Shown here in pieces: positions 33,634-48,958 of a DNA stretch of 64,000 nucleotides. Numbering within the stretch: position 1 is the first letter of the stretch; the number at the start of each line of letters is the position of its first letter. The translations under genes were made by a program, and so were the position numbers. Under the pieces are notes generated by a model. It saw nothing but the letters and a program-made list of their open reading frames with translations, did no database searches and was not told the DNA's origin. The stretch lies in assembly GCF_023195885.1 (NCBI RefSeq), contig NZ_JALPKO010000001.1, forward strand, positions 124,001 through 188,000, read 5' to 3'. Source of the stretch: Methylonatrum kenyense (GTDB taxonomy: Bacteria; Pseudomonadota; Gammaproteobacteria; Nitrococcales; Aquisalimonadaceae).

Positions 33634-33661
33634 TTGGCGGAATGCGGAGATTGGGTATACA
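33634..33661 (+). promoter_or_regulatory. Candidate sigma-70 promoter for the cold-shock gene
   Basis: TTGGCG, 16 bases, TATACA. This would give a 5' untranslated leader of about 125 bases before the csp start, as is usual for cold-shock genes whose leader RNA senses temperature. Position and match support it; the start site is not shown. Confidence 0.5.
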
Positions 33662-33795
33662 TTTCCCCTTAGCAGTGTCAGCCCTGTCGCAAGATCCGGT
33701 AGTCTTCCCGCGTTGGTAGTCACTCCAGGACGTTGTTGTTCAGTAAGACCTGCTAAATCGTTAATAGAGACAATTTCCGAAGGAGCAGACTCCAA

Positions 33796-33999: not shown

Positions 34000-34018
34000 T
34001 CCGGACCAACATTCGCAC

Positions 34019-34045
34019 AAAAAACCCCGCCTAGGCGGGGTTTTC
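34019..34045. terminator. Bidirectional rho-independent terminator
   Basis: AAAACCCCGCC pairs perfectly with GGCGGGGTTTT around TA. It has T-runs in both directions and lies between the convergent csp gene and the minus-strand TraB operon. Confidence 0.92.
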
Positions 34046-34063
34046 TTTGAACGGACAATCGAA

Positions 34064-34594: not shown

Positions 34595-35493
34595 CAGCCT
34601 CCCCTTTCGCGAACGCGCTCCGGCGCATGTCCTGCGCGGCGCAAACCGTCAAGCACACTGTCCTCGCCCACCAGATGCAGGGCACCCACCGCAATGAAGT
34701 AGGTCCCCGGCTCGGCCAGCATGGCTTCAAGCTGCGGCAACCAGTTGCGGTGCCGATCGACGATCAGTGCCTGATAGAGATCCGGGTAATCGCTGTAGGT
34801 TTCGAGCAGATAGCGTTCCTGCGCGGCCACATCGCCCGCCGACCAGGCCTCCAGGGTCTGCCGGGTGATCGTCTCCAGATCATCCATTTCCCGCGCGGTC
34901 TGCATCAGCAGGGCGATCTGGGTCTGCTCGGACAGATTGGCCAGCACACCGAGCTGCTCGCGGAATTTCTCCAGCTCCCGGACCTCCATGTCTTCGCCCG
35001 CCTGCCGCAGCAGGTAGGACTCGACACCCTGATCGGGACGCATTCCAAGCTGATGCAGGGAACTCAGTGTCAACGTCATGCCTGCGAGCCAGGGCTGCAT
35101 GCCCTCCAGCAGCACCGGCTGCAGGCCCACCTGCTCGACGGCAGCGCGCACCTCGGCCCAGCGTTCGGGGCCGACAATCGCCGACAACCGACGGCCATCG
35201 GTATTGAGCCCGCGCTGGAACATCAACTGCTGGATCTCAGCCTGATTCAGGTTGCTCAGGTTCATTTCCAGCACCAGCACGTCGCTGGCCTCGAAGGCAC
35301 GCTCGATGACCGGCGCCAGCGGCGCGTGTCCCTCCGGCAGAAGATGCATGGTGCCGAAGAGATAAAGCGTGGAATCCCCGCTGTCCACCCGCCATAGCGC
35401 GGGATGCTCCTGCTCGTCGGCGGCAAGGATGCCACTGACGCCAAGGCACAGGATCAGAAGGATGAACCATCGGAACGTTGACGAAACAGCCAT
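34594..35493 (-). CDS. TraB/GumN family protein
   Basis: 299 residues from ATG 35493 with GAGGG eight bases upstream; a TTG at 35508 is an alternative. Signal peptide, then the TraB/GumN (Tiki-like) domain with LYLFGTMHLLPEG near the start and YFIAVGALHLVGEDSVLDGL at the end. The GTMH and GALHLVG motifs mark a predicted metalloprotease-like active site; activity in bacteria is unproven. It is followed by the small secreted protein with overlapping stop and start. Confidence 0.92.
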   Translation of the reverse strand: MAVSSTFRWFILLILCLGVSGILAADEQEHPALWRVDSGDSTLYLFGTMHLLPEGHAPLAPVIERAFEASDVLVLEMNLSNLNQAEIQQLMFQRGLNTDGRRLSAIVGPERWAEVRAAVEQVGLQPVLLEGMQPWLAGMTLTLSSLHQLGMRPDQGVESYLLRQAGEDMEVRELEKFREQLGVLANLSEQTQIALLMQTAREMDDLETITRQTLEAWSAGDVAAQERYLLETYSDYPDLYQALIVDRHRNWLPQLEAMLAEPGTYFIAVGALHLVGEDSVLDGLRRAGHAPERVRERGG

Positions 35494-35504
35494 GAGCAGG
35501 GCCC

Positions 35505-36125
35505 TCAAAGGCGGAACAGATACTCCTGCATGCCGTTGCCAAGCAGCACGGCACGCTCCATCTGCAGCCCGCCAAGGCGTTTCTGCAGTTCAGCGGGCGC
35601 GTGCCGGGGCGCCGGTCGGCGGCTTCCCGAACGCACGCTCGCATAACGAACGGCACCGTCCCGATCAAGGAACAGCGGATGCATCGGGTCCGGCATATCG
35701 CTGGCGCTGTACTCGGTGATGGCATGGATCAGGCCACCGGAGGCGAGCAAATGCCTCAGGCGCCGCCCCAGGGCTTCCAGGACCGGGGTCTCCAGGTAAT
35801 CAAGTAGCTGCCAACACAGCACCAGGTCCGCATTGCCGAACACACTGGCCGGAAGCAATTCGTCGATGACCGCGTCCAGCGAAACCGGCTCCTGCCTGGC
35901 GTCCAGGCGCATCAGATCGTCCAGCACGTCACCTATGCAGTACCGGCATCGAAACCCGGACAGTAAGTCCAGGCTGCCCGGCTGAGCACCACCGAGATCA
36001 AGGATCACCCGCCGCTCGCCGGCCTCCAGGCTATCAATGGTCGCCTGCAGCAGGCGCGCCGGGAAGGCTTCCGTATCCCGCGTACCTCCCGGGGCCCGCC
36101 CCCGCTCCCGCTCAGCTACCGTCAT
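35505..36125 (-). CDS. SAM-dependent methyltransferase-like protein
   Basis: 206 residues. RRVILDLGGAQPGSLDLLSG has the position and shape of the SAM-binding glycine motif (LGGAQPG replaces the usual GxGxG), and ADLVLCWQLLDYLETPVLEALG matches the post-II helix region of class I methyltransferases. The degenerate motif leaves activity uncertain. It sits between the bactofilin and TraB genes on the same strand. The target is not predictable. Confidence 0.6.
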   Translation of the reverse strand: MTVAERERGRAPGGTRDTEAFPARLLQATIDSLEAGERRVILDLGGAQPGSLDLLSGFRCRYCIGDVLDDLMRLDARQEPVSLDAVIDELLPASVFGNADLVLCWQLLDYLETPVLEALGRRLRHLLASGGLIHAITEYSASDMPDPMHPLFLDRDGAVRYASVRSGSRRPAPRHAPAELQKRLGGLQMERAVLLGNGMQEYLFRL

Positions 36126-36158
36126 TGCCCGGGTGTCTGACGTAGGAATGCCACCGGA

Positions 36159-36767
36159 TCAGGCGCCGCCTTTGCCACCCGCAGCTTCGGCCGTCGGCTT
36201 GGCCTGCGAGCCGGAACCTGTGGTCTTGGTTTCGGCGGGCGCGGCAGCACCGCCACCACTTGCCGACGTTTCGGCCGCCGATGCCTGTTTGGCCTTGTTC
36301 ATCGCCGACTCGACTGACTTGCTGTCCATCTCGATGGCGCCCTTGAAGCGGGCACCCTCTTCCAGCGCGACCCGCGGCGCCATCAGGTTGCCGCGAATTT
36401 CGGCGGACTTCCGGATCACGATGCGATCGGCACCGTAAAGGTCGCCGTCCACCGAGCCCTCGACGTACACCGTGTGGGCGTAGACCTCGGCCTTCAGACG
36501 CCCCTTGGGCCCGATGGTCAGGCTGTTCTCCGGCAGGTGGACCCGTCCGCTGATCTGGCCCTCGATGACGAGGTCTTCACCGCCACGCAGCGTGCCCTCG
36601 ATATGAATGGATGGGCCAATCACCGCGGCCCCCCGGCCCCCGGTTGCCTGACTGCTGCCCTGCGCTGCCGGTGTTGCGGTCGTTTCCCGATCCTGCATCT
36701 TGACGTCCTCCTGGCTGGTGGCCGGCTTGCCGCCGTCCCCACGTTTCCCCAAATCGAACATGGACAT
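36159..36767 (-). CDS. Bactofilin (polymer-forming cytoskeletal protein)
   Basis: 202 residues from ATG 36767, preceded by a strong GGAGGAGAGAGG site. Flexible N terminus, then the bactofilin beta-helix (IGPSIHIEGTLRGGEDLVIEG ... VYVEGSVDGDLYGADRI), then a low-complexity Ala/Gly/Thr tail. Bactofilins polymerise without nucleotide and position envelope enzymes. No LytM peptidase gene lies next to it. Confidence 0.94.
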   Translation of the reverse strand: MSMFDLGKRGDGGKPATSQEDVKMQDRETTATPAAQGSSQATGGRGAAVIGPSIHIEGTLRGGEDLVIEGQISGRVHLPENSLTIGPKGRLKAEVYAHTVYVEGSVDGDLYGADRIVIRKSAEIRGNLMAPRVALEEGARFKGAIEMDSKSVESAMNKAKQASAAETSASGGGAAAPAETKTTGSGSQAKPTAEAAGGKGGA

Positions 36768-36864
36768 GCCTCTCTCCTCCAACACCCTGGCCGAGCCGTA
36801 TTCCGCGGCCCGGCAGTGGCACGAATCGTTGTACGGGCAGCAGTTCCAGCGCGCCCGGGACTTT

Positions 36865-36916
36865 AGAGAAACACTGAACTCCAACGCGGGCGTGCGAATG
36901 GATCAGTGTTTCCCTA
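36865..36916. repeat. Short inverted-repeat element at the glgC stop
   Basis: Left end AGAGAAACACTGAACTCC, GC-rich loop (shared with 7029-7040), right end GGATCAGTGTTTCCCTA. The final CTA is the complement of the glgC TAG stop, so the element forms the end of that gene. Confidence 0.8.
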
Positions 36917-38194
36917 GCGAACGTGATCAACCTCCTGGCCAAGCATTTCCGGGGTGACCAGCACGACACCTCCCGGAGAGACGTAGAAGCGGCTGCGATC
37001 CTGTTCCACATCGTAGCCAATGACGGTGCCGTTCGGGATCCGACAGCCTTCGTCGATCACCGCGCGCCGGATGCGACTGCCCTGGCCCACGGTGACCGCC
37101 GGCAGCACCACCGAATCTTCCACCACCGACTGCGGCTGCACCTGCACCTGCGAAAAAAGCAGGCTGTGGCGCACCAGCGAGCCGGAGATGATGTCGCCCC
37201 CCGAGACCATGGAATCCAATGCCATGCCGGGCAGGTCCTCGTCGTTCAACTGCACATTGATGAACTTTGCCGGCGGCAACTGTGCCTGGTAGGTCCAGAT
37301 CGGCCAGAGTTCATCATAGATGTTCAGTTCCGGCCGGGCGCCAATCAACTCCTGATTGGCTTCGTAAAACGCATCCACGGTCCCCACATCCCGCCAGTAG
37401 GGTTGTTCGCCACTCTGCGGATCGCGAAACGGATAGGCAACGACTTTCGCCTCGTGAATCGCCCGCGGAATGACATCGCGGCCGAAATCACGGTCCGAAT
37501 CGGGGTCTTCTGCATCCTGGCGCAGCGCCCGGAACAGGTAGTCACGATTGAAAACATAGATGCCCATGGATACCAGCGCATTGCTGGAATCCCCCGGGAT
37601 CGGATCCGGATTCTCCGGCTTCTCGGTAAATTCCAGCACCTGCCCATGCTCATCGACGCTCATCACACCGAAGGCCCGGGCCCGCTCCAGCGGCGTTTCG
37701 ACACAGCCCACAGTCATCTCGGCCCCGGACTCCACGTGCCGGGCGATCATCGTGCCGTAGTCCATCTTGTAGACGTGATCACCGGCCAGCACCAGGACAT
37801 AGCGGGGATCATGGGCGGTGATGATGTCAATGCTCTGGTACACCGCGTCGGCGGTGCCCGCATACCACAGCGGCTGATCCAGTCGCTGCTGGGCTGGCAC
37901 CAGTTCGACGAACTCGCCGAATTCGCCGCGCAGGAAGCCCCAGCCTCGCTGTACATGCTGGATCAGGGAGTGCGCCTTGTATTGGGTCAGGACCTGGATT
38001 CGGCGAATGCCGGAATTGATGCAGTTGGAGAGCGGAAAATCGATCAGACGAAACTTGCCGCCGAAGGGCACCGCCGGTTTTGTCCGCCAGTCGGTGAGAT
38101 TGACCAACCGCCCGCCTCGGCCACCAGCAAGAATCATGGCCAGCGTGTCCCTGGTCAGGCGGCTGACGAAACGGGGATTGCTCTCGAGAAACAT
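36914..38194 (-). CDS. glgC: Glucose-1-phosphate adenylyltransferase
   Basis: 426 residues. Pyrophosphorylase motif [11 protein letters not shown] with [20 protein letters not shown], and the left-handed beta-helix C terminus ([21 protein letters not shown]). It makes ADP-glucose for glycogen. The last residues (EVDHVR) are followed by a TAG supplied by a repeat element. No other glycogen gene is in the window. A medium-size repeat element lies just upstream. Confidence 0.97.
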
Positions 38195-38210
38195 GCGTCT
38201 GCCTTGTTGT

Positions 38211-38338
38211 TAGGAAAACACCGATCCGTTCCCGCGCCTGCGCCGGGGTCCGCAGCGTCCCCGAGGCAAGGCGCGCCCTGCGGCACCGCCGTGATCCCGC
38301 GGTCAGGCAGCGCGACACGAGTGAATCAGCGTTTCCCT
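38211..38338. mobile_element. Medium inverted-repeat element (internal deletion form)
   Basis: Ends TAGGAAAACACCGATCCG and GTGAATCAGCGTTTCCCT. The first two-thirds align with the first part of the 274-bp form (GAGGCAAGGCGCGCCCTG ... GCAGCGCGACACGAG), after which it jumps to the right end. It therefore looks like a shortened derivative. It lies upstream of glgC; the rest of the 38195-38506 gap shows no gene. Confidence 0.75.
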
Positions 38339-38506
38339 GTGCTCCGACGCGGGCCTGGCTACTCTCGCAGCCGGCCGACAACCGGCTTCTGGCCGGTCCC
38401 CGGGAAAACTTCCGACAAGCCCGTCGATGGACGTGGAACCGACAGGATCTTGAAGACACTGCACCGTTTGCGGGCAGCATACTGGCGAGCGCCGCCCATG
38501 CCAATC

Positions 38507-39139
38507 TCAGCACCGACCAGATATACGCCGCCAGGGCCGAATACCCTGCCGCCGCAGCAGACGGTGCAGGTCCGCCAGGGTATCCACGTCCCAGGCGTTG
38601 CCAAGTTCCTGCAAGCAACCGCCACCCCGGGACACCCGCTGGCGGGTGCAGCGAAGGACCATGGACGTCCCCCAGGGCATCCTGCGGAAGGCGCGTACCG
38701 GCGGCTGGTCGGCCGCGACCAGCACATAGCCGCCGTCCTCGGCCGGCACCACCAGCAGGTCCTCCTGTGCCAGCGCCCCGGTGGCGGCCGTAGTCATGGT
38801 TTCGGCGGAAACGGCGGGGCAATCGGCGCCAATCACAACTACTCGACCGGGTTGCCGCAGCGCCTGCAACATGCGCTGCCCCAGGTCACCAGGTGGTTGC
38901 CGGCGCAGCGGCACGCCGTGCCGCCGGCAAAGCCCGCGCAGCCAGGGATGATCAGGATGCGGCGTGACCCACAATTCGACCGGAAACCCGGTTGCGAGGG
39001 CATTGCGGAGGGTTGCCTCCAGCAGGCGTCGATACCAGAAGCAGGCCGCGCGCCGGCCAAGCCGCGCGGCGAGGCGGGACTTGACCCGCCCGACCACCGG
39101 GCTGCGGCCGAACACAACGATTCGGCACTGCACGCTCAC
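38507..39139 (-). CDS. DUF2064/TIGR04282 arsenosugar-type glycosyltransferase
   Basis: 210 residues from GTG 39139, which overlaps the stop of the next gene (GTGA). The nucleotide-diphospho-sugar transferase fold has RIVVFGRSPVVGRVKSRLA at the start and VVVIGADCPAVSAE with its Asp in the middle. Proteins of this family sit in arsenosugar synthesis clusters beside TIGR04283 proteins, as here, but the other genes of that pathway are not visible. The product call is by family and pairing. Confidence 0.85.
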   Translation of the reverse strand: MSVQCRIVVFGRSPVVGRVKSRLAARLGRRAACFWYRRLLEATLRNALATGFPVELWVTPHPDHPWLRGLCRRHGVPLRRQPPGDLGQRMLQALRQPGRVVVIGADCPAVSAETMTTAATGALAQEDLLVVPAEDGGYVLVAADQPPVRAFRRMPWGTSMVLRCTRQRVSRGGGCLQELGNAWDVDTLADLHRLLRRQGIRPWRRISGRC

Positions 39140-39822
39140 CTTGGCCCTTGCCGGTACAGGCGCGCCAGTTCCTGCGGATTGTCACCCCGCCAGAACCGAT
39201 AGCGCAGTTGCCACATCTGAAGCACCGTCGGCAGCACACCGAATCGTTCCCAACGCCGGGCCGAGGTGCGCACCCGAACGGCAGAACAGTAAGGGCGGCC
39301 CTGGCGCCGCAGCGCACCGCTCAGGGCCACATCCTCCATTAACGGAATCAGCGGGAAACCGCCGACAGCTTCGAAGGCATCGCGCCGCACGAACAGTGCC
39401 TGGTCACCGGTCGCAATCCCGGTCAGGCGACTGCGCTGGTTCATGCACCACTCGATGATTCGAAACGCCGCGCCCGGCGCATCCAGACGAACATCGAAAC
39501 GTCCCCAGGTCGCTCCGCCGGCCATGGCACGGACCACGGAATCTGCCGCGTTCACCGGCACCAGCGTGTCGGCATGCAGAAACCAGAATGCCTCACCCGA
39601 GGCCAGCGCCGCGCCTGCGTTCATCTGCGCGGCGCGGCCCCGCTCGGCTGTCAGCACACGATCCACCAAGGAGAAGGCCAGCCCGGTGGAACCATCAGTG
39701 CTGCCACCATCGACAAGGATCACCTCATGTCCGGCCTCACGCATTCCCTGCAGCGGTGCAAGTACCAACGGCAAGGCCTCCGCTTCGTTCAGACAGGGTA
39801 TTATCACCGACAATCCTGGCAT
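39136..39822 (-). CDS. TIGR04283 family glycosyltransferase (GT2)
   Basis: 228 residues from ATG 39822 ([18 protein letters not shown]); a GTG at 39834 is possible. GT-A fold with [13 protein letters not shown] and LHADTLVP (DxD-like). Paired and overlapping with the DUF2064 gene, the pair described in arsenosugar biosynthesis. Whether arsenic is involved here is unknown because no arsenite methyltransferase or arsS-like gene is in the window. Confidence 0.87.
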
Positions 39823-39920
39823 GTATTCGGCCACATCCTCATTGTCGCTGCCGACAGCGGCAGCGGATCTTGGTCAAGCCCAAGTTTGGTGATACGCTTC
39901 GCGCGCTGGCAAGTCTGCAC

Positions 39921-39996
<76 letters not shown>

Positions 39997-40000
39997 CTTT

Positions 40001-40040
40001 AGAAAGTAAGTTATTGTTTTTGAACAGTTTTTTACTTTCT
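40001..40040. repeat. Inverted repeat just inside attL
   Basis: AGAAAGTAA and TTACTTTCT face each other across 22 AT-rich bases. It may terminate the tRNA transcript. The word ACTTTCTGA at its right edge (40034-40042) recurs at 45325-45333 and 47071-47079, so it may also be an integrase arm site. The remaining bases of the 39997-40347 gap show no gene. Confidence 0.5.
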
Positions 40041-40347
40041 GAACCTCTATACCCCACAACTGAACCATCAACCCCTAAATGGTGGGGAATCAAGGACGCC
40101 GGTCACCTGACCGCCGCCTGAACCCTCAAACCAGCCAAATCTCAGAAACGCCCTCCAATCGTTCATAACCGCCACATCAGTGGTAGTGCATAGGCTGGAC
40201 TATGATCGTCCAGCAGACAGCCTCACAGTCAGCCACCCCCCAGCACCCCCCAGCGGCCAGCGGAAGGCGCGTGACACAACCTCTCCAAAATACAGAAACA
40301 AAATCCTGCTAGGCTTGTGTCAAACCTGTGTCTCGGAGTCAACGAAC

Positions 40348-40884
40348 ATGAAGAATACGATTCTTTCCTTAATCGCACTATTTCTCGTCGGATGCGCCAC
40401 CCCCGGTTCAAACGGAATTGAAACCACAGGAGAAGGCGACGATTTCGAGGATGAAATTCGTATTTCTTCTTACCAATTCTCAAGAAATTACTTAGGTATT
40501 GTTTATGCTGAAAATGCTCATCCGTTTTTTCGAGCATATGTGACGAAAGACGACAGAAACATTAGGGACTTACAATTATATGTGAGAACTAACAACTACG
40601 ATTGGATGTATTGGGACGAAGTTCGCTACCGGAAAAATGGCGAATTACACAGAATCAACATGTCCAATGTTTCTAGGGATGTCGATTGTAGCAGTTACAT
40701 CTGCCAAAATGCAGAGGACATTGTCGGAAGCATTCCTTTAGAACTACTGGAATATATTGCTCAAAAAGAAGGGGATTATGAAATCCGAATCACTTCCAGC
40801 CGAAGCAGTGGGCATATTGATGCCACTATTCCAACAGATGAAGCACGAGACTTTCTAGCTGCGTTAAACGATGTGCGAAACTGA
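40348..40884 (+). CDS. Island-encoded lipoprotein of unknown function
   Basis: 178 residues from ATG 40348; signal peptide MKNTILSLIALFLVGC with a lipobox LVGC. The mature part is a small domain rich in Tyr and Asp with two further cysteines (DCSSYIC), with no match I can name. Low-GC codon use unlike chromosomal genes. Its place as the first gene inside attL is typical of satellite cargo, so exclusion or defence against phages is conceivable; that is inference only. Confidence 0.75.
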   Translation: MKNTILSLIALFLVGCATPGSNGIETTGEGDDFEDEIRISSYQFSRNYLGIVYAENAHPFFRAYVTKDDRNIRDLQLYVRTNNYDWMYWDEVRYRKNGELHRINMSNVSRDVDCSSYICQNAEDIVGSIPLELLEYIAQKEGDYEIRITSSRSSGHIDATIPTDEARDFLAALNDVRN

Positions 40885-40979
40885 CGTTTCCCACTTCATG
40901 CTAGTCAGCACCCCTAGGGAGAACTCGCTAACTTACGACCTGTCGAAATACCTAACAATTGCCAGACACAGGAGGGATT

Positions 40980-41153
40980 ATGATGGATTCTGAAACAGCC
41001 GCCTTGATGATCGCGGCGGTGAAGCGGGGAGAGCTGGGAGAGGAAATCCCACGCTACAAAATCTGCAAAAATGCCCCACCAAACCTATTCCGAGAGATCA
41101 GAAAACGCACCACCCTGAAACGCTCTGCTACGAAACAATCTGAAACATTCTGA
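40980..41153 (+). CDS. Small protein of unknown function (57 aa)
   Basis: Starts MMDSETAALMIAAVKRGELG after a strong GGAGGG site (40971-40976). The sequence is basic toward the C terminus (REIRKRTTLKRSATKQ), so nucleic acid binding is possible. No family recognised. It precedes the replication-gene leader. Confidence 0.6.
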   Translation: MMDSETAALMIAAVKRGELGEEIPRYKICKNAPPNLFREIRKRTTLKRSATKQSETF

Positions 41154-41458
41154 ATAGGGGGGTCGCAAATTTTACAAACGAAAAACTATAATTAAATCAA
41201 TGGCTTATTAAATAATCACTTAACAACTTGGGCCTAAGGCCCTATAGATGGCGGATGCCGAAGCCTCGAATCGAAGCCCCCAAGGTTAAGAATAATATTA
41301 AATATTCATTGAGTTAATTAAGTAGAACTTCGGTATACTATTGAGGTCTACTCCATAGCGTGACGCTAACCCATACCCTTTATCTGCCCGGTTTAGTCAT
41401 GCGCTGAGCCGGGTTTTATTTTGGGTGTGGTAATTATAACAAGGGGATTGGGTAATGG
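41154..41458 (+). promoter_or_regulatory. AT-rich leader/possible origin ahead of the replication gene
   Basis: No gene. It contains a perfect palindrome GGGCCTAAGGCCC (41230-41242), a direct repeat of CGAAGCC nearby, a strong -10 TATACT at 41334 (with TTGAGT 19 bases before it, a long spacer), a small hairpin TAGCG-TGA-CGCTA (41356-41368) and a terminator (41387-41422) before the start at 41459. This arrangement suggests attenuation control of the replication gene, and the palindrome and repeats could be part of an origin. Confidence 0.45.
41387..41422 (+). terminator. Terminator/attenuator upstream of the replication gene
   Basis: CCCGGTTTA pairs with TGAGCCGGG (two G-U pairs) and is followed by TTTTATTTT. 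It lies between the likely promoter and the start codon of the downstream gene. Confidence 0.7.
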
Positions 41459-42637
41459 ATGTATTACAGCGACATTGATGAACTATTAACGAATCAGTTA
41501 ACGGGTTATAGTCAACGACGACACGAATCTAGGCGGCTAGTCCAACAGGTTTTTTCCTGTCCCACTCGGCACTGGGTCAATCCACATTGTCTTGCCCTGA
41601 GCGACAAGTATCTCCGAACTCTCGGACACAATCCACAATCGGCCCGCCGTGTACTATCAGACCTTGGGCTGATACAGTTTAAGCGGACGAAACGTGATTG
41701 TGCAGATTTCGCCATCCCCTCCGACCAGTTCCACGAATTGAGCGCCAATCTACTGGTGGAAAATCTACCTATTCTTGATCGTGATGGTAACGCAGCCAAA
41801 ATCCCCAAGACCAAACGCCACGGATCACTAAAGGTCTGTCAAAAGCCACAAATAAATATCCGCAATCTGCAACGGTGGCTAACCCACAACCGAAACGAAT
41901 ACAGTTTTTTAGCCGCTGCATCATTTTACCGCTTCGCCACCAGCAGCACAGCACCCGGAATAATTCCATTAAACTACAATCTCAGTGGTAAAACAAACAG
42001 GCTGTATGGACTCGGTGCCAACCCGCAGAACACGCAGCGTTGCCTACGGTCGGCTCTGTTCGACGGCTACCATTCAATCGACATCAGTAATTGTCACTTT
42101 TCTTTGCTTGCGAATCATGATGTTGGTGGCTCAATCACTAATTACGCAGCCGACCCCGCCAGTATCCGCCAGCAGATTGCCGCCGATGTAGGAACCACAC
42201 CAGAAGCAGTGAAGAAGTGCCTGCTGGCGCTGATCTACGGCGCTGAATTGAACCTCTCCCCTCGCCAAGCACTAGGCCGTTCGCTCACGTGGCGAGACAC
42301 GGCAAAGGCACCAAAGCGCTTTAAGACCCTAACGGAAGCGGAACGCGAGCTGGTCGAACGGTTTTGGAATCACCCTCTTGTCGTATCGCTTCGCTCCGAC
42401 TTGGAACAGGCAAAGTGCGTGTTCGGAGCCAGGGATTTTAAGGAACTCAGCACAATTTTAATGCAAATTGAACAACGGATTATGCGAGTTGTGTTGGAGG
42501 ATATTTATATCCTCCTTCCTCTCCATGACGGTGTGATTGTGGAAAACGAACTAGACCCGGAGCCGTTAGAACACAAGGTCAGCAAGGTCACGGGGTATGA
42601 AATCAAATTGAAATCAGAACGGGTGGAATATAACTAA
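41459..42637 (+). CDS. Putative replication protein with family-A-polymerase-like palm motifs
   Basis: 392 residues. Three motifs fall in the order and spacing of a family A polymerase palm: DISNCHFSLL (Asp208; motif A), AVKKCLLALIYGAELN (Lys252/253 to Tyr260-Gly261; motif B, K...YG) and LLPLHDGVIVEN (His356-Asp357; motif C, HDG instead of HDE). There is no exonuclease domain and the fingers region is small. The N-terminal about 100 residues look like a helix-turn-helix-type DNA-binding domain. Place after a leader with terminator and palindrome suggests a replication initiator or primase-polymerase. A clear family name cannot be given. Confidence 0.6.
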   Translation: MYYSDIDELLTNQLTGYSQRRHESRRLVQQVFSCPTRHWVNPHCLALSDKYLRTLGHNPQSARRVLSDLGLIQFKRTKRDCADFAIPSDQFHELSANLLVENLPILDRDGNAAKIPKTKRHGSLKVCQKPQINIRNLQRWLTHNRNEYSFLAAASFYRFATSSTAPGIIPLNYNLSGKTNRLYGLGANPQNTQRCLRSALFDGYHSIDISNCHFSLLANHDVGGSITNYAADPASIRQQIAADVGTTPEAVKKCLLALIYGAELNLSPRQALGRSLTWRDTAKAPKRFKTLTEAERELVERFWNHPLVVSLRSDLEQAKCVFGARDFKELSTILMQIEQRIMRVVLEDIYILLPLHDGVIVENELDPEPLEHKVSKVTGYEIKLKSERVEYN

Positions 42638-42657
42638 AAACAATAAAGGAGAAAATT

Positions 42658-43203
42658 ATGGGGAGTTTTTATAATAACAATAAGGTGGGCAAACAAGCCG
42701 AGAAAGCAGTCAGGGTTTGGCTTGAGGGTAAAGGCTGGAAAGTTATTGACGCCAGCAACCACCGATTTTTTCAACAATCCGGTGTTGATTTCGTGGCGGA
42801 AAGGAAAAGTACCACTTATCTCTTAGAGGTTAAGTCAGACCCTCACCCGCCGAAATGCGTTTTTTTGGAATACATCTCAAACGACGAAAAAGGCTCCCCC
42901 GGTTGGCTTGAAACCACCAGTGCCGACCGTATTTTCTACTACTTCCGAAACTACAACCGCGCCGTGATTTTCGACCCGACCAACGCCCGCGACATTATCA
43001 CCCAATGGGAGTACCCCGCAGCCTGTGCCGAAACGACGATTAACGGAAAGGTGATTTACCGAAGCTGGGGTTACATCGTCCCCGTTGACGACTTGGAAAT
43101 ACTGCAAGAATTGCAACTTCCCATCCCGAAAAATTGTCAAAAAAAAAGCACGTTACATAAAAAAGGAGACCTTTTTGAAACGTTATTTCATTCTATCAAA
43201 TGA
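42658..43203 (+). CDS. PD-(D/E)XK-type nuclease-like protein
   Basis: 181 residues. KVGKQAEKAVRVWLEGKG (Glu15), SGVDFVAE (Asp44) and YLLEVKSD (Glu57, Lys59) form the restriction-endonuclease-fold signature. Possible roles are resolvase, replication nuclease or defence nuclease. AAGGAG ribosome site upstream. The 3' end overlaps the next gene, so it belongs to the replication operon. Confidence 0.7.
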   Translation: MGSFYNNNKVGKQAEKAVRVWLEGKGWKVIDASNHRFFQQSGVDFVAERKSTTYLLEVKSDPHPPKCVFLEYISNDEKGSPGWLETTSADRIFYYFRNYNRAVIFDPTNARDIITQWEYPAACAETTINGKVIYRSWGYIVPVDDLEILQELQLPIPKNCQKKSTLHKKGDLFETLFHSIK

Positions 43204-43528
43204 CCTTGCTGACCGTTGGGAAATTGACCCTCACCACCTACAGTTTGCCGTCCGGTCCGACATTATCACCCCGTTCCATACCGATGATGGGACAGCGTTT
43301 GATTGGCTTGAAGTCGTGGCGCATGAACTGCGGGCCGATCTGCCCCACATTCCCGAACGCCTCCGCACAATCCACACCGCAAACTGGCTCGGTATGTACG
43401 GTCATTGGGTGGATCAGTACACCAGCGAGACCTTGGAACGCATCGTGTGGCAGTGCGGCACCAGCCCCAAACTTTTTGAAGTTTTGGATTTGTACAGAGA
43501 GGCAACAACAGGAGAAACCAATGGATGA
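43175..43528 (+). CDS. Unknown island protein (117 aa), TTG start
   Basis: TTG at 43175 chosen because GGAG lies six bases upstream (43165-43168) and the N terminus becomes MKRYFILSNDLADRW. It overlaps the nuclease gene by 29 bases. Soluble, Trp- and His-rich (ANWLGMYGHWVDQY). No family recognised. Its place between replication and packaging-type genes suggests a satellite-specific role. Confidence 0.6.
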   Translation: MKRYFILSNDLADRWEIDPHHLQFAVRSDIITPFHTDDGTAFDWLEVVAHELRADLPHIPERLRTIHTANWLGMYGHWVDQYTSETLERIVWQCGTSPKLFEVLDLYREATTGETNG

Positions 43529-43754
43529 AGTAAAGGCGCGAGAGGCGCTAGAGAAGGAACTGGCCGAACGCGAGGCGGAACTGGCCGATGCACTGAGAGA
43601 GAAATACCGCACGGAACAAGTTGATCGCCTCCAGGCCAAGCAAGCCAAAGGCCCGGACCTGACCAAGCTCCGCCGAAACCGAATGACGAACGACGAAAAA
43701 AGTTATGTAATTCAAGAGTTTGGAATTGATGTGTACAACAAATTGCCACTGTGA
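43521..43754 (+). CDS. Small coiled-coil protein with scaffold-like C-terminal motif (77 aa)
   Basis: ATG 43521 follows AGGAG and overlaps the previous stop. Residues 1-42 form a charged heptad helix; residues 55-77 (MTNDEKSYVIQEFGIDVYN) share 11 of 23 positions with the C-terminal motif of the next gene. That motif type ends some phage scaffolding-like proteins. It may be a truncated duplicate or a partner subunit. Confidence 0.6.
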   Translation: MDEVKAREALEKELAEREAELADALREKYRTEQVDRLQAKQAKGPDLTKLRRNRMTNDEKSYVIQEFGIDVYNKLPL

Positions 43755-43769
43755 AGGAGATCATAATTT

Positions 43770-44372
43770 ATGACTGAAGAAACCACCGAACCAAGTATTG
43801 AAGAACTTCAGGCCGCGCTGGCCGAACGTGATGCAGAGATTGCAGACGCACGTGACCACATCGCCAAACTTAATCAGGAGTCTGCCACCCGTCGGCTGGC
43901 GCTCAAGGAGCGGGAACGCGAACTGGCCGACACTCAGGCAGCAGCGAGTGAATACGAAAAACGCCTTTCCGGCACCGAAGAAACCCTCAGCGAACTACAG
44001 GCCCGCCTTCAACTCGCTGAGACTGAACGAGCGGTTGATCGCGCTATCGCAGACCACGGTGCAATCCCCGAACTAGTGCGTCCGATGCTCACGGGTGCCG
44101 CCGAATATCGGGACGGCGCTGTGATGGTCGGTGACAAGCCAGTATCCGACTACGTGGCATCGCTTCGTGAACAGGAAAGATTCGAAGGGGTGTTTCGTGG
44201 CCGTGGTCAGACCGGAGGCGGTACGCGGTCCAGTAACGCTGCCAAGGGCACAGCGCCCGTACCCAAAAAGCCACGAAGCGAGATGAGCGACGCGGAAAAA
44301 CGGGATTTCATCCTCACCCACGGGATCGAAACCTACAACTCGCTACCGCTTGGATCATTGAACGGTGCCTAA
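43770..44372 (+). CDS. Coiled-coil protein, phage scaffolding-like
   Basis: 200 residues: N-terminal coiled coil (about 8-95), a middle segment DHGAIPELVRPMLTGAAEY ... KPVSDYVASLREQERFEGVF with the flavour of phage scaffold and head-assembly proteins, a Gly/Ser/Lys linker, and the motif MSDAEKRDFILTHGIETYN near the C terminus. No capsid gene follows, so it could act on a helper phage capsid. The function is inferred from pattern only. Confidence 0.6.
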   Translation: MTEETTEPSIEELQAALAERDAEIADARDHIAKLNQESATRRLALKERERELADTQAAASEYEKRLSGTEETLSELQARLQLAETERAVDRAIADHGAIPELVRPMLTGAAEYRDGAVMVGDKPVSDYVASLREQERFEGVFRGRGQTGGGTRSSNAAKGTAPVPKKPRSEMSDAEKRDFILTHGIETYNSLPLGSLNGA

Positions 44373-44853
44373 TCCAGTCGGGAAGCCGTACAAACTGACT
44401 CCCGAAAAGCAGGCCAAGATTCTCGACCTGTTAGAACAGACTGGAAATCTCTCAGCATCCGCTGCCGCTTGTGGTGTCACTGGCCGCGCCGTCTACGCGC
44501 TGATGGCACGCGAACCCGATTTCCGTAAGCAGGTGGACGATGCACGGGAAAAAGCGTGCCTAAAAATAGAACAGGAGATGATTAGGCGGGGGCTGACCGG
44601 CATTGAAAAAGGAATTTATTATCAGGGTGAGCGGGTAGCTACTGAACGCGAATACTCGGACAAGCTGTTGTTAGCACTAGCAAAAAGCAACATGCCCCAC
44701 CGCTATGCGGAACGGTCTGTCGCTTACGTGCAAAACAACTTCAGCGTAGACGACACCAGCCAGAGGGCCAAGGAACGATTAGCGCATCTGCTGGGAATCG
44801 AGGGTGGTGATTACATCGAAGGAGAGATCATCCGCGCCGACGATGAAAATTGA
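44365..44853 (+). CDS. Terminase small subunit-like protein
   Basis: 162 residues from GTG 44365, overlapping the previous stop. N-terminal helix-turn-helix (EQTGNLSASAAACGVTGRAV), then EREYSDKLLLALAKSNMPHRY, a pattern common in small terminase or packaging-recognition proteins, and a charged tail. Small terminase subunits recognise pac DNA. No large subunit is present, so a helper phage would have to supply it. Confidence 0.65.
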   Translation: MPNPVGKPYKLTPEKQAKILDLLEQTGNLSASAAACGVTGRAVYALMAREPDFRKQVDDAREKACLKIEQEMIRRGLTGIEKGIYYQGERVATEREYSDKLLLALAKSNMPHRYAERSVAYVQNNFSVDDTSQRAKERLAHLLGIEGGDYIEGEIIRADDEN

Positions 44854-45325
44854 CATAGACCAACTGTACCGGGACCACTTCAGTTACATCGTAAATGTCT
44901 GCCGAAGGTACGTTGGAGAAGATGCAGAAGACGTAGCGCAGGACACATTCGTTAAGGCGTGGCGATTCAAGGACGGATTCCGTGGCGACGCGGCCCCAAG
45001 AACTTGGCTGCACAAGATTGCCGTCACAACTTGCCTCAACCACATCAAAACGAAAAGCAGACGCCTTCCTCTAGCCGACCGCGACGATGAACCAGAAACA
45101 CCCCACCTAGACACACCAGATGGAATCATCGAACAGGAACAGACCCTCTCCCGCATCAGCGACACAGTAGATGGAATGTCCGTAGAACTGGGCCTGACCC
45201 TGCTGCTCAACGCCTTGGATGGCCTGAAATACGAAGAAATCGCAGAACAGACCAACGTCCCATTGGGAACCGTCCGCAGCCGCCTACACCGCGCCCGCCT
45301 GATGATTCAAGAAGAAGATTCCTAA
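44843..45325 (+). CDS. ECF-type RNA polymerase sigma factor
   Basis: 160 residues from ATG 44843, overlapping the previous gene. Region 2 has YIVNVCRRYVGEDAEDVAQDTFVKAWRF and TWLHKIAVTTCLNHIK; region 4 has LDGLKYEEIAEQTNVPLGTVRSRLHRAR. No anti-sigma gene is adjacent. A sigma factor at the end of a satellite operon is unusual; it could switch on element genes or helper phage genes. Confidence 0.85.
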   Translation: MKIDIDQLYRDHFSYIVNVCRRYVGEDAEDVAQDTFVKAWRFKDGFRGDAAPRTWLHKIAVTTCLNHIKTKSRRLPLADRDDEPETPHLDTPDGIIEQEQTLSRISDTVDGMSVELGLTLLLNALDGLKYEEIAEQTNVPLGTVRSRLHRARLMIQEEDS

Positions 45326-45333
45326 CTTTCTGA

Positions 45334-45492
45334 TTATAGAGACTTTTCCCACTTCTCCAAGTCAGCCACAGACCACCGTTTCAGTCCCAATATCTCCCTC
45401 GGCGGTGGCATTTTCCCTTCATTGACCCGCCGCCATAGCGTGGTCCGGCTGATGGAATAACGTTGTTGAACCTCCCGATTTGAAATGTACAT
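45334..45492 (-). CDS. AlpA/excisionase-like HTH protein (52 aa)
   Basis: Small gene with a strong GGGAGGAAAT ribosome site before ATG 45492. The product reads MYISNREVQQRYSISRTTLW ... GKMPPPREILG ... VADLEKWEKSL, the winged-helix layout of AlpA/MerR-type excisionases. It lies downstream of the integrase on the same strand. In satellites and cryptic prophages AlpA proteins activate the integrase or excision. It is too short to be caught by usual length cut-offs. Confidence 0.8.
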   Translation of the reverse strand: MYISNREVQQRYSISRTTLWRRVNEGKMPPPREILGLKRWSVADLEKWEKSL

Positions 45493-45694
45493 AATTTCCT
45501 CCCATAGGCATTACTCCGTAGTTAATTGGAAGGAAGAAATTAGCCGAAATAACATGTAATTGCAAGAAAAACGGCTTATTTTTTAATAGTGCTTTTTAGC
45601 GTTAATTTTATTTAATTAACCCCAACCCTGTAGGGCACTACCGTGTTAGGTACGTTCGTACAAAATCACCTCAGAAACGTACATAAATCCCCGG
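45493..45694 (-). promoter_or_regulatory. AT-rich control region between integrase and alpA-like gene
   Basis: 202 bases, very A/T-rich, with the palindrome GTACGTTCGTAC (45650-45661) and related GTAC words at 45677-45682 and at the alpA-like start. The symmetric site could bind the AlpA-like protein. No gene is seen. Confidence 0.4.
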
Positions 45695-46948
45695 TTATTG
45701 GAACGGCACCACATTATCAGCACGGTGATTAGGCTCTTTTGCGTCCAAGAACTCGGACCAGTAGTTCATCATCTCCCGCCGCTGCGGTAGCAGTTCATCC
45801 CGAGCATATGCAGCCCGCGTTGCGTCCGAGTTGACGTGTGCCAACGCCAGTTCGCTCACTTCATCATCAAACCGATGCGGGAAACCTTCCGAATCTCTGA
45901 ATGTGTAGTGCCGCGCCCAATCCTTGAAACTAGACCGGAAGCCATGCGGCACCGCATCAACACCCATGCGCCTGCATACGGCACTCATCGTCATGTCCGA
46001 GATTGGACCGCCTTTGGTGTTGGGGAATACGTAGTCGGAGGTTCGCGGCATTGATCTTAAAATATCAATGGCCGCAGTGGACAGTGGCACCTTGTGTTGC
46101 TTACCCGCCTTCATGCGATGCTCGGGTAGCGTCCACAACTTCTCTTCTAGGTTTATTTCATCCCAGGTGGCTTTCCTCACCTCGCCAGACCGTGCAGCCG
46201 TCAATATGGCGAACTCTAGCGCCCTAGCACCAATGCCATCACGCGTCCGCAGATCAACCACGAACGCTGGCACGTCCTTCCAAGGGAGCGCCCTGTGGTG
46301 TGCGACCTTAGTGATTGCGCTCGGCTTCGCAAGTTTGTGTTCGAGGTTGTCTTTCCACCGCGCGGGGTTATCCGCTGTCCTGTAGTCAGACGCGATTGCC
46401 CACGAGAACACCAAATCCATCCTTTGCCTGACTCTAGTGGCCGTCTCGGTTTTCTCATTCCATATAGGTTCCAGAACCTCTAGCACGTCCTTCTTGGTCA
46501 TCTCAGCGACAGAACGCTCCCCAACGTATGGGAACGCATACATCTCAAGACTTTTAATCCAATCCTGTCTGTGCTTCTCGCTCTTAAACTCAGGTGCCTT
46601 GATTTTGTGGTAACGCCTCGCCGCAGCCTCAAAGGTAAGGAATTGCTCCTGAGCGGCCTTCAGTGCGTCCTGTGCGGCCTTGCGCTCAACAACAGGGTCA
46701 ACCCCCCGCGCGATCATATCGCGCATCTCTCGCGCCTTCTTACGAGCATCAGTCAGCGGCACGGTGGGAAAGCCGCCTAACCCAATGTCTCGACGCTTAC
46801 TGCCCACCATCGCACGGAGAATCCACGTCTTGCCCCCGTTCTTGGTGACTTGCAGGTATAGACCAGACACACCACCTACCGCGTGGTAACCGGGTGTGTT
46901 CATGTTCCGCACGTCGGTTGCTGACAACTCTCTCGCTACTTTCGGCAT
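45695..46948 (-). CDS. Tyrosine recombinase/integrase (DUF4102 type)
   Basis: 417 residues. N-terminal DUF4102 arm-binding domain (VGGVSGLYLQVTKNGGKTWILR), core-binding domain, and catalytic domain with Arg253 (TAARSGEVRKATWDEI), His335-x2-Arg338 (HGFRSSFKDW), His371 and Tyr381 (LALAHVNSDATRAAYAR). All catalytic residues are intact. Such integrases use tRNA 3' ends, consistent with the tRNA-Ala att repeats. It points away from attR. Confidence 0.96.
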   Translation of the reverse strand: MPKVARELSATDVRNMNTPGYHAVGGVSGLYLQVTKNGGKTWILRAMVGSKRRDIGLGGFPTVPLTDARKKAREMRDMIARGVDPVVERKAAQDALKAAQEQFLTFEAAARRYHKIKAPEFKSEKHRQDWIKSLEMYAFPYVGERSVAEMTKKDVLEVLEPIWNEKTETATRVRQRMDLVFSWAIASDYRTADNPARWKDNLEHKLAKPSAITKVAHHRALPWKDVPAFVVDLRTRDGIGARALEFAILTAARSGEVRKATWDEINLEEKLWTLPEHRMKAGKQHKVPLSTAAIDILRSMPRTSDYVFPNTKGGPISDMTMSAVCRRMGVDAVPHGFRSSFKDWARHYTFRDSEGFPHRFDDEVSELALAHVNSDATRAAYARDELLPQRREMMNYWSEFLDAKEPNHRADNVVPFQ

Positions 46949-47096
46949 GACCGCTACCTCACATAATACCCATCATAAATAATACAATCACCAGCAACAT
47001 CATGCAACATGCTGAACAGGGTATGTGCGAGATTTTATTTATAAATCAGTGGTTAGTGGTTCCGGTAGCAACTTTCTGAAACAGCGAGTCGGTGGA

Positions 47097-47110
47097 CCTC
47101 GGCTCCACCA
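47097..47110 (+). repeat. attR
   Basis: CCTCGGCTCCACCA, an exact copy of the tRNA-Ala 3' end at 39983-39996. The rest of the 46949-47498 gap holds an ACTTTCTGA word (47071-47079) and the long repeat element at 47208-47480, and no gene. Confidence 0.9.
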
Positions 47111-47207
47111 ATCCCCTCCCCGGCGTTCCTCGCCGATCATGTCCCGCGCCTGCTAATCTTCCTACCTGCTAAACTCGCGGCGCATTTTCTTTATCATGCG
47201 TATATTC

Positions 47208-47480
47208 AAGGAAACACTGATCTATTGGCACGCCTGCGTTGGCGTCCGCATTTTTTCCTAGCCAAGGCGCGCTGCGCAGCGCCGCAGTCATTCTGCAGTC
47301 AAGCAGCGCAACGCAGCAATCGGGTAAAATGCGGCCCAACCCGAAGGGTCCGGCCGGTTTTGGCCCCTGGCTGTGTTGCGTCACCGGCCGGTAGCTCTGG
47401 CTACCGAACCGGCACCGAGTCTTGCCAGATGACCAAAACCGGTCTCGGGCGCAGAGGTGCGAATAGATTTGTGTTTCCTT
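47208..47480. mobile_element. Long inverted-repeat element (MITE-like), copy 2
   Basis: 273 bp, close to collinear with 30300-30573, with ends AAGGAAACACTGATCTATT and AATAGATTTGTGTTTCCTT. It has the same nested inverted repeat around CCGCATTTTTTCC and the same segment ending CCAGATGACCAAAACCGG. No coding capacity is apparent. It lies about 100 bases outside attR and 18 bases before the next gene, so it may supply that gene's promoter region. Confidence 0.85.
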
Positions 47481-47498
47481 AATTCAGTGGAGAAGACC

Positions 47499-47843
47499 AT
47501 GCCGGCGAAAACAATCAAGTCACAACAAGCCCGCGGCGCAAGGCTCAAGTCCTTGTACGTCGTCGGATTCGGCGTCATCGCGATGTTCCTTATGGCTGCC
47601 TGCTCCGAGGAGCAGGTGCCGTCTCCGGACAACGACGCATCCCTTGCGGACGACGTTGCCGAAGTCTGCGATCACGTGCTCGGCCAGTACGGATATGCAT
47701 ACGCCGTTATCGAAACCGCTTGCACCGAGGAAGTGGATAACGACAGGTCCTCCGAGGAAGTCGTTGCAGAAGTCTGCGACCTCGTGGAGGAAGAGTATCC
47801 GTACGCCCACAGGGGCCTCGTCAGAGACGGCATTTGCCCCTGA
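47499..47843 (+). CDS. Small lipoprotein with a duplicated cysteine motif (114 aa)
   Basis: ATG 47499 after GGAG. The signal segment ends in a lipobox LMAAC (Cys35). The mature part has two copies of AEVCDxVxxxYxYA followed by a distant Cys: Cys57/Cys75 and Cys93/Cys113, suggesting two small disulfide-closed helical units. No family recognised. The long repeat directly upstream hints at recent rearrangement. Confidence 0.7.
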   Translation: MPAKTIKSQQARGARLKSLYVVGFGVIAMFLMAACSEEQVPSPDNDASLADDVAEVCDHVLGQYGYAYAVIETACTEEVDNDRSSEEVVAEVCDLVEEEYPYAHRGLVRDGICP

Positions 47844-48034
47844 AGCAGTCGCGGGATTGCGGTGGAATTCGCACGTCCCGCGGGTTCACCAGTTTCTGAA
47901 GGCCCGGACCTGTTCCGGGTCTTCAGTGTCGCCACCGCGCCCGCGCGAACTCCATCCTTGACCCACCCGACCAACAAGCCACCAAGCCGTGGCAGCCCTG
48001 CAGGTCTTCGGTTAGGCTCTTGACCCGAGTCATC

Positions 48035-48111
48035 GCCCTGGTAGCTCAGCTGGATAGAGCAACCGCCTCCTAAGCGGTAGGTCGCAGGTTCAAATCCTGC
48101 CCAGGGCACCA
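48035..48111 (+). tRNA. tRNA-Arg (anticodon CCT)
   Basis: 77 bases with encoded CCA; acceptor GCCCTGG/CCAGGGC, D stem GCTC/GAGC, anticodon stem ACCGC/GCGGT with loop CTCCTAA (anticodon 48069-48071), T arm GCAGGTTCAAATCCTGC. Reads AGG codons. No element is inserted at its 3' end. Confidence 0.97.
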
Positions 48112-48185
48112 TTTTCCCAGGGGTCTGAACCGGAAAATCGGTCAGGCCGGGATCAATGGTTGCCGGGCTTCCAGCCGGCGGCGAT

Positions 48186-48776
48186 TCAGTCCGCGGCCAG
48201 CAGCCGGGCGGTGCGGATGCACCGGGCCATCAAATCCCGCAGCGCCTCTGCCGTTGCCTGGTCCTGCAACTGACCGTTGGCATCAAACGCGTCACCCGCC
48301 TGGCCGACCGTGACCTGGCCAGGCACCACATGCACGCCGATACCAGCAAGCAGCGTGCGCAGGTGCGCCAACGCGCGCATGCCGCCCAGGCGTCCGGGGG
48401 ACGCGCCGCCCAACGCGGCGACCTTTCCGGCATAGGCTACCAGCGGCGGCTCCTCGTCCGATTCTCGGCGAGAAATCCAGTCAAGGGTGTTCTTCAGCAG
48501 CGGCGGGAAGAAACCGTTGTACTCCGGCGATGCAATGAAGAAGCCGTCGCAGGCCAGGAACCGTGCCTTCAGCGCCCGGGCCGACTCTGGCACCCCCTCC
48601 CGTGTCTCCAGGTCACCGTCGTACAGCGGCATCGGGTAATCGGCCAGTTCGATCAGTTCCACTCGCGCCTGCTGTTGCAGGGCAATGTCCGCCGCACAAC
48701 TGGCCAACTTACGGTTGAATGATGCACCGCGGGTACTGCCCGCGACTACGAGTATCAACGGCTGTTTGCTCTCCAC
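48186..48776 (-). CDS. NADPH-dependent FMN reductase family protein
   Basis: 196 residues from GTG 48776, chosen for its GAGGTGA site and family N terminus (LILVVAGSTRGASFNRKLA); longer readings add a non-family extension. Flavodoxin-like fold with FIASPEYNGFFPPLLKNTLDW and GGASPGRLGGMRAL. Reduces FMN or quinone-like substrates with NAD(P)H. Stands alone between tRNA-Arg and mobB. Confidence 0.9.
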   Translation of the reverse strand: MESKQPLILVVAGSTRGASFNRKLASCAADIALQQQARVELIELADYPMPLYDGDLETREGVPESARALKARFLACDGFFIASPEYNGFFPPLLKNTLDWISRRESDEEPPLVAYAGKVAALGGASPGRLGGMRALAHLRTLLAGIGVHVVPGQVTVGQAGDAFDANGQLQDQATAEALRDLMARCIRTARLLAAD

Positions 48777-48796
48777 TGGATCACCTCGCAAAGGAT

Positions 48797-48812
48797 TTAG
48801 GGAAACGCTGAT
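48797..48812. repeat. Half-site of the GGAAACACTGAT repeat
   Basis: TTAGGGAAACGCTGATCC matches one end of the family; no opposite arm is found nearby. Another lone end, GGGAAACGCTGA, lies at about 60097-60108 upstream of dsbB. Confidence 0.5.
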
Positions 48813-48958
48813 CCGGTTCGAACATCGGATGCCCCGGATCCACGCCCATTGCTGCCGTGGTATGAAATGCGCTGGCCGTGCAAACGGCCAGGGATCCCCT
48901 GGCATTCGCCGCGCGGGCCATGGATACTTGCCCGGTCCTCGTAAAGACCTCAGCAGAC

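Follow-up and report, generated by a model that had tools for sequence, protein, structure and literature searches.

A TV-Pol-like minimal family A polymerase as the probable replication enzyme of a 7.1-kb satellite-like element in Methylonatrum kenyense

The window analysed here, a stretch of 64,000 nucleotides from Methylonatrum kenyense (contig NZ_JALPKO010000001.1, positions 124,001 to 188,000 of the forward strand), carries at a tRNA-Ala gene a 7.1-kb element with the gene content of a phage satellite, and the most likely replication enzyme of this element is a TV-Pol-like minimal family A polymerase encoded within it. TV-Pols, a little-studied kind of small family A polymerase found in mobile elements and in virophages, were described in 2008 (Iyer et al., PMC2579912), and they were predicted to be primase-polymerases since they replace AEP prim-pols beside D5 helicases (PMC2579912). 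The window protein is TV-Pol-like and does not constitute a new enzyme family.

The polymerase gene starts with ATG at 41459 and ends with the stop at 42637, and the coordinates and the length of 392 residues agree with those of the first-pass annotation, which had been made from the letters of the DNA. The catalytic part extends over approximately residues 127-392 and contains R181, Q190, D208, K252, E338 and D357. Motif A has D208 within DISNCHFSLL, motif B has K252 and the pair Y260-G261 within KKCLLALIYGAE, and motif C has H356-D357-G358 within LPLHDGVIV. These three strings had already been put forward as the A, B and C motifs of family A; all three are present in that order. The spacing from K to G in motif B is nine residues, the same as in Pol I, where the pair is K758-G767. 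Motif 1, R181...Q190, which the first-pass annotation had missed, was found in NRLYGLGANPQN and aligned with GRLSS..PNLQN of Pol I. A regular expression for the A-B-C motifs matched 6 of 20,000 shuffles of the protein, and 1 of 20,000 once motif 1 had been added; among the 178 frames of 150 aa or longer in the window, either form matched a single one, the polymerase frame itself. Because the expression was composed post hoc, with the protein already seen, the shuffle and open-frame counts are a rough guide. Conservation is a stronger test than motif counts, and the columns kept among divergent relatives are the catalytic ones.

The 11-row alignment (A2) contained the window protein and ten relatives that are 16-30% identical to it. 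Besides M1, residues R181, Q190, D208, K252, E338, D357 and G358 were invariant in all 11 rows, and Y173, C212 and H356 were nearly so; we take the invariant columns to fall on motif 1 (GRL...LQN), motif A, motif B (K...YG), the QG/E helix and motif C. In a second alignment, which partly overlaps the first, all eight rows likewise keep the two metal-binding aspartates and the lysine of the O helix. Motif C reads HDG in 10 of the 11 rows and YDG in the remaining one, so HDG is a trait of the group; the reported replacement of HDE by HDG is therefore real, but it is the norm here and not an oddity. The arginine of the RxxxK motif is absent from the window protein, which has P248 at that position, and an arginine four residues before K252 occurs in only one row (L012) and is missing in gp030 of the Microcystis phage Ma-LMM01 too. 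No aspartate between motifs A and B was invariant in the 11-row alignment. R237, invariant in the eight-row set, may substitute for the RxxxK arginine.

When the protein was searched alone, nothing was found in Pfam (E <=1), NCBIfam or the PDB (phmmer), and neither PF00476, the DNA_pol_A family of Pfam, nor an exonuclease domain was matched in Pfam at E <=1. The profile search that the first-pass annotation had proposed came out in favour of its reading: the 11-row profile gave 11 hits in the PDB at E <=10, of which the best nine were family A DNA polymerases (1.6e-4 to 3.8e-3), with Klenow/Pol I (1.6e-4) and T7 DNA polymerase (about 1e-3) as the best entries and motifs 1, A and B in register in the alignment with Klenow. 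An 8-row profile without the phage TV-Pols (A13) found no family A entry in the PDB at E <=10, and the HMMER match to family A thus depends on the wider set. With hhalign, the comparison of A2 with 20 cellular Pol I domains gave P 4.9e-8 (reversed control 0.63, column-shuffled control 0.60), and A13 (P 1.9e-6) and A12 (P 7.9e-5) were supported as well; the local alignments of A2 and A13 span motifs 1-A-B and not motif C. The host genome encodes its own Pol I.

A first AlphaFold model, of the full-length protein with four rows, was poor (pLDDT 49.7), and its best 50 VIA rows were all family A or mitochondrial RNA polymerases with a top Z of 6.9, a level that is possibly unspecific. The structural reading rests on a second model of residues 127-392 with eight rows (pLDDT 78.7, pTM 0.73), and residues 1-126 lie outside it. 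Along the chain come two helices, the hairpin with R181, the strand with D208 and the K252 helix, then a long helix, the hairpin of motif C and, at the end, one more helix and a final strand. In this model the first palm strand terminates at D208, and D357 lies in the turn of the motif C hairpin. The predicted thumb consists of helices 8-17 and 24-35 (model numbering), which precede the R181 hairpin with its strands 46-49 and 56-59 and with R55 (= R181) just ahead of the second strand, and Pol theta and T7 polymerase align with the model from its residue 1 onwards. As modelled, the order of the elements is that of the TV-Pol core described in 2008 (PMC2579912), for which an N-terminal thumb made of two antiparallel helices, a beta-hairpin whose arginine is absolutely conserved, fingers that have a conserved aspartate and an RxxxK motif, and a palm with two metal-binding aspartates are given. 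The fingers are reduced, the 266 model residues aligning within approximately 387 residues of Taq, in support of the proposed compact palm protein without large fingers; an exonuclease was not recognisable either.

The model contains the palm on which the family A reading depended, and its alignment with family A polymerases runs from end to end. In the comparison with family A DNA polymerases and single-subunit RNA polymerases that had been proposed, the best 50 VIA rows all belonged to these two groups, the best one having Z 12.8, an rmsd of 4.1 A and 240 aligned residues; VIA compared 590 chains top-ranked by Foldseek and is not an independent search. Foldseek itself gave four matches in the PDB at E <=0.001, all of family A (Aquifex Pol I, 1.2e-4), and among its best 50 rows the first 47 were family A, with modest query-normalised TM-scores of 0.36-0.50, while rows 48-50 (E >=0.24) were a pol alpha-primase, a mitochondrial RNA polymerase and a polymerase of family B. 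The comparison with viral models yielded 25 matches at E <=0.001, among them the replication protein of the Zamilon virophage at rank 6 (1.1e-7) and the helicase/primase/polymerase of the Qinghai Lake virophage at rank 14 (1.8e-5); the E-values from the PDB and viral-model libraries are not directly comparable.

Two of 144 related genomes matched, the window's own counted, and the other one, from the same family, has a protein that is 27% identical. The protein or alignment A1 had matches in 2 of 369 genomes of the class and in 2 of 54 of the order, own genome counted each time; the second of the class matches (G327, 46 aa, E 8e-4) was left unused. Among 398 genomes of the phylum, seven, own included, had a match to a four-row profile at E <=0.01, and five of the other six gave alignment rows, an N-terminal-only match (G693) being left unused. 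Relatives are also carried by two Polaromonas plasmids from glaciers, 11.2 and 7.2 kb in size (3e-15 and 5e-12 in the plasmid search), and two Leptolyngbya plasmid records at E 0.5 were dropped as chance, one translation having been read by eye. The Polaromonas relative that matches the window protein at 3e-15 (P0003) in turn matches gp030 of Ma-LMM01 (tblastn, 6e-5), while a tblastn search of phages with the window protein alone gave no relative and two records at E 0.5. Ma-LMM01 carries one TV-Pol of the set of Iyer et al. 2008 (PMC2579912), which in our reading is gp030, and at the level of sequence the window protein is tied through P0003 to the published TV-Pols. Profile searches of IMG/VR found four further relatives (L024, L025, L062 and L063); alignment A1 found none in IMG/VR, and a pattern search with the single sequence found none in the IMG/VR and GTDB contigs. 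In PHROGs the single protein gave weak matches to the uncharacterised families phrog_4756 (0.014) and phrog_10380 (0.28). For one Polaromonas polymerase (L004, 6095-7600) the annotation reads Clp protease N-terminal domain protein, which seems to go back to a Clp_N match below threshold (8e-4; 19.9 bits, cut-off 20.7) at residues 342-372, after motif B.

The element that contains the gene (39997-47110, 7,114 bp) is bounded by two copies of the 14-bp att repeat CCTCGGCTCCACCA, and its GC content is 0.503 compared to 0.652 on the left (19997-39920) and 0.636 on the right (47111-64000). The genes on the forward strand are, in order, those for the lipoprotein, a short ORF, the polymerase, the nuclease-like protein, the small protein, the short scaffold, the scaffold, the small terminase and the sigma factor; after the sigma factor, the AlpA-like regulator and the integrase follow on the opposite strand (Table 1).

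Table 1. Features of the element at the tRNA-Ala gene, in positions of the window
Feature	Position	Strand	Basis or remark
att repeat 1	39983-39996		3' end of tRNA-Ala (39921-39996)
Predicted lipoprotein, 178 aa	40348-40884	+	signal and LVGC box by eye
AT-rich gap ahead of polymerase	41154-41458		23-nt imperfect inverted repeat
TV-Pol-like family A polymerase, 392 aa	41459-42637	+	motifs, profile, predicted fold
Nuclease-like protein, Hjc/YraN type, 181 aa	42658-43203	+	weak family matches
Small conserved protein, 117 aa	43175-43528	+	TTG start chosen by eye
Short second scaffold, 77 aa	43521-43754	+	coiled coil and scaffold C-terminal motif
Phage head scaffolding protein, 200 aa	43770-44372	+	phrog_206 E 2e-16
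Terminase small subunit, 162 aa	44365-44853	+	phrog_4044 E 8e-28
ECF-type sigma factor, ~160 aa	44843-45325	+	Sigma70_r2 8.5e-15, Sigma70_r4_2 1.8e-12
AlpA-like regulator/excisionase, 52 aa	45334-45492	-	HTH_17 2e-6, phrog_66 5.8e-8
Tyrosine integrase, 417 aa	45695-46948	-	Phage_int_M 1.3e-31, Arm-DNA-bind_3 1e-19, Phage_integrase 2.5e-13
att repeat 2	47097-47110		identical 14 bp

Of the features by which satellites are recognised, the element has an integrase, att repeats, an AlpA/excisionase and a packaging gene, and it has no complete virion gene set. By these att repeats and this gene content it looks like a phage satellite, in support of the satellite context given in the first-pass annotation. 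The ORFs scanned (ten each in the Pfam and PHROG scans) included no recognisable gene for a large terminase, portal, capsid, tail or helicase, no OB-fold partner or helicase was recognised by family search beside the polymerase gene, and no origin or helicase was identified in the element. The gap ahead of the polymerase gene, with an inverted repeat at 41189-41211 and 41298-41320 (78%), is a weak candidate for an origin or a promoter. A second scaffold copy was not found in the host genome at E <=0.001, so there is no obvious helper prophage carrying the scaffold.

The nuclease-like protein matched Hjc (0.026), UPF0102 (0.034), YraN (1.4e-4), the Holliday junction resolvase family of PHROGs (0.0023) and PDB entry 2eo0 (0.064), which is named hypothetical and which we take to be an Hjc relative; all these matches are below the curated cut-offs where such exist. 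A restriction-enzyme fold is suspected. The small protein after it had no NCBIfam match and is possibly a DNA-binding protein. The scaffold matched Phage_scaffold at 2.6e-5, under the cut-off, and had no tblastn match in phages, and the small terminase had tblastn matches in 58 phage records. The AlpA-like regulator matched Phage_AlpA at 0.0076, under its cut-off. The lipoprotein gene is the first gene inside the att site; its product had no NCBIfam match and a longer frame had no Pfam match, and it is possibly cargo, e.g. for superinfection exclusion. Just beyond the right end of the element, a small lipoprotein-like ORF (47457-47843) was noted by eye.

A second element of this type was found in Aquisalimonas lutea CECT 8326, where approximately 7.3 kb lie between 53-bp repeats, one of them in a tRNA-Asn gene. 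Eight genes are in the same order in both elements, at different att sites. The products of the two elements are 40% identical for the nuclease-like protein, 35% for the small protein (longer frame), 56% for the scaffold, 54% for the small terminase, 49% for the sigma factor and 28% for the integrase. Since the module is conserved despite the divergent integrases and the different sites, it is read as a working element and not as debris. In both elements the short scaffold (5897-6145 in A. lutea) also carries the C-terminal motif of the full one (5286-5900 in A. lutea), and it is possibly a modifier of capsid size. An ECF-type sigma factor ends the packaging gene row in both satellites (4199-4702 in A. 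lutea); to our knowledge such a factor is unusual for a phage satellite, and it may switch late transcription. The first match to the A. lutea polymerase crosses one TGA upstream of a 336-aa frame (L002/L007), and the N-terminal part of that polymerase may be separate or broken.

This satellite type was found in two genomes only, and bait searches with the nuclease, the small terminase and the scaffold gave no further example beyond A. lutea; L017 and L021 from these searches were, by eye, ordinary phages, and L018, looked at for these two genes only, has a small terminase and a large-terminase-like ORF. The relatives of the polymerase from IMG/VR lie in other surroundings. L024 is a 10,864-bp contig with a 55-bp terminal repeat, read as circular, that encodes the small and large terminase, portal, protease, major capsid protein, two connectors, HNH and ParA; no tail protein was among the nine proteins scanned, all of which had hits. 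L063 has a similar head gene set by eye, again with no tail gene recognised (in 7,082 bp of an 11-kb contig), and the two are candidates for capsid-forming satellites or phage-plasmids. L025, a contig of approximately 11 kb with a 127-bp terminal repeat and likewise read as circular, has the polymerase at 4547-6022, along with a gene for a tape measure protein and an ORF that by eye resembles serine recombinases. Judging by the contents of these three contigs, a number of small phage-like replicons carry related polymerases. A RepA_C-type Rep is encoded by the Polaromonas plasmids themselves, according to the available part of PMC6015842; with this separate Rep the polymerase need not start replication there and is not the sole replication gene.

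We infer that the polymerase replicates the element, and the gene content suggests how. A helper phage would trigger excision by AlpA and the integrase, and on the resulting circle the polymerase, through the metal-binding D208 and D357, would prime and/or extend DNA. DNA ends would perhaps be made by the neighbouring nuclease-like protein, the helicase would come from the host or the helper, and either this nuclease-like protein or the small protein after it could serve as a priming partner. The small terminase would direct the satellite DNA to the packaging motor of the helper, the scaffold and the short second scaffold would act on capsid assembly of the helper, and the element probably travels inside the particles of another virus.

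It is possible, if somewhat doubtful, that the protein is instead a primer-dependent accessory polymerase for gap filling, recombination-linked or second-strand synthesis, which does no priming while the host or the helper starts replication. CCPol, in the available part of PMC7581432, only extends primers when its partner MP is left out, and the absence of a recognised OB-fold partner or helicase next to the gene and the residence of the Polaromonas relatives on plasmids with a separate Rep would also fit such a role; against it stands an element without any other recognised replication gene. That the element is a decaying prophage remnant, with the polymerase left from a phage replication module, is unlikely. 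Its frames are intact, its att repeats match, the order of eight genes is kept at another att site in A. lutea in an element of similar size (7.1 and 7.3 kb), and fragments of large terminase, portal, capsid or tail genes were not recognised among the ORFs scanned, although only part of a phage head and packaging set, the scaffold and the small terminase, is present, as would be expected of a remnant.

With Z 11.0-11.8, a tie with many DNA polymerases, mitochondrial and T7 RNA polymerases are also among the matches of the model, and the protein could be read as a single-subunit RNA polymerase of one of these types that transcribes the element or makes RNA primers. We consider this very unlikely: the PDB hits of the 11-row profile at E <=10 include DNA polymerases and no RNA polymerase, in Foldseek the first mitochondrial RNA polymerase came after 47 chains of family A DNA polymerases and one of pol alpha-primase, and the sigma factor in the element suggests the use of the host RNA polymerase. 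A structural or regulatory role of a catalytically dead palm has been suggested for RRM-only Pol homologues in some SCC-like elements (available part of PMC10061031). For the window protein, the missing RxxxK arginine and a motif C of HDG and not HDE would be in line with such a role, but it is highly improbable, since every row of the two partly overlapping sets (11 of 11 and 8 of 8) has the metal aspartates and the O-helix lysine, and since the five RRM-only homologues described in the available part of PMC10061031 lose one or both of the aspartates that are both kept here.

With a TV-Pol-like replication enzyme as the preferred reading, the question of novelty can be narrowed. The first-pass annotation had seen a different replication strategy in this protein; the enzyme is not new, TV-Pols having been known since 2008, and the possible novelty lies in its occurrence within a phage satellite, beside a nuclease-like gene and without a recognised helicase. 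No report of a TV-Pol in a phage satellite was found in the literature searched (open-licence papers). If true, a TV-Pol-like enzyme in the primase slot of a satellite would be a non-homologous replacement, and the virophage pattern would then reach bacterial satellites too. A more speculative proposal, which we consider rather unlikely, is that of a helicase-free satellite replicon in which the nuclease-like protein would open the circle at the origin and the TV-Pol-like enzyme would start and extend DNA, so that bacterial phage satellites and virophages would rely on the same minimal family A polymerase. With a catalytic part of approximately 266 residues and an element of seven kilobases, the system offers a tractable test of whether a bare family A core can start DNA strands. 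Strand starting by such a core, without exonuclease and with reduced fingers, was predicted in 2008 (PMC2579912), and within the literature covered, as far as the available parts go, priming has been demonstrated for CCPol-MP, which looks more like Pol I.

Compared with known systems, the window protein shares with the TV-Pols a minimal family A core, the beta-hairpin arginine, the two palm aspartates, the O-helix lysine and a mobile-element neighbourhood with an integrase, here a tyrosine integrase. It differs from them in that no D5 helicase was recognised, fused or adjacent, in that the RxxxK arginine is absent, as it also is from gp030 of Ma-LMM01, and in that phage packaging genes lie in the same gene row. 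Moreover, a nuclease-like neighbour is present in both elements (a weak nuclease call), whereas TV-Pols are stated never to show nuclease linkage (PMC2579912); the nuclease assignment, if right, would be a departure from that statement. According to the available parts of PMC7581432 and PMC10061031, CCPol of SCCmec primes only with its partner MP, and CCPol-MP was placed in TV-Pol by the same authors. CCPol-MP and PolA-SSB share with the present case, in the same available parts of both papers, a family A catalytic domain in the presumed replication operon of a mobile element, but they look Pol I-derived, keep part or all of the exonuclease domain, and have an OB-fold partner and a helicase, neither of which was recognised here by family search.

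PICI, PICMI and P4-like satellites share with the element a chromosomal att site, an integrase, an AlpA-like regulator and small size, and genes for packaging or the capsid are present in many of them; the window element has an ECF sigma factor in addition. In descriptions of phage satellites, the priming enzyme is usually an AEP or a DnaG-type primase. For PICMI a putative primase is described, and for SaPIs a primase together with a helicase (available parts of PMC10803314 and PMC10061031), where this element has a TV-Pol-like polymerase, and the available part of PMC12324425, which was checked for a similar polymerase, names no replication polymerase. The cfPICIs have their own large terminase, portal and capsid, none of which was recognised in the window element, while L024 has them. 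By analogy only, the short scaffold-like protein could compete with the scaffold of a helper as CpmB of SaPIs does (available part of PMC5644958), with the difference that a full-length and a short scaffold are both present here.

Virophages are small viruses that parasitise giant viruses. Their replication proteins are long (778 aa in Zamilon, where by analogy with Sputnik the protein would include a helicase part, and 839 aa in the Qinghai Lake virophage), whereas the polymerase of the window element stands alone; they nevertheless match its catalytic part, as modelled, in structure, and virophages, too, are satellites of other viruses.
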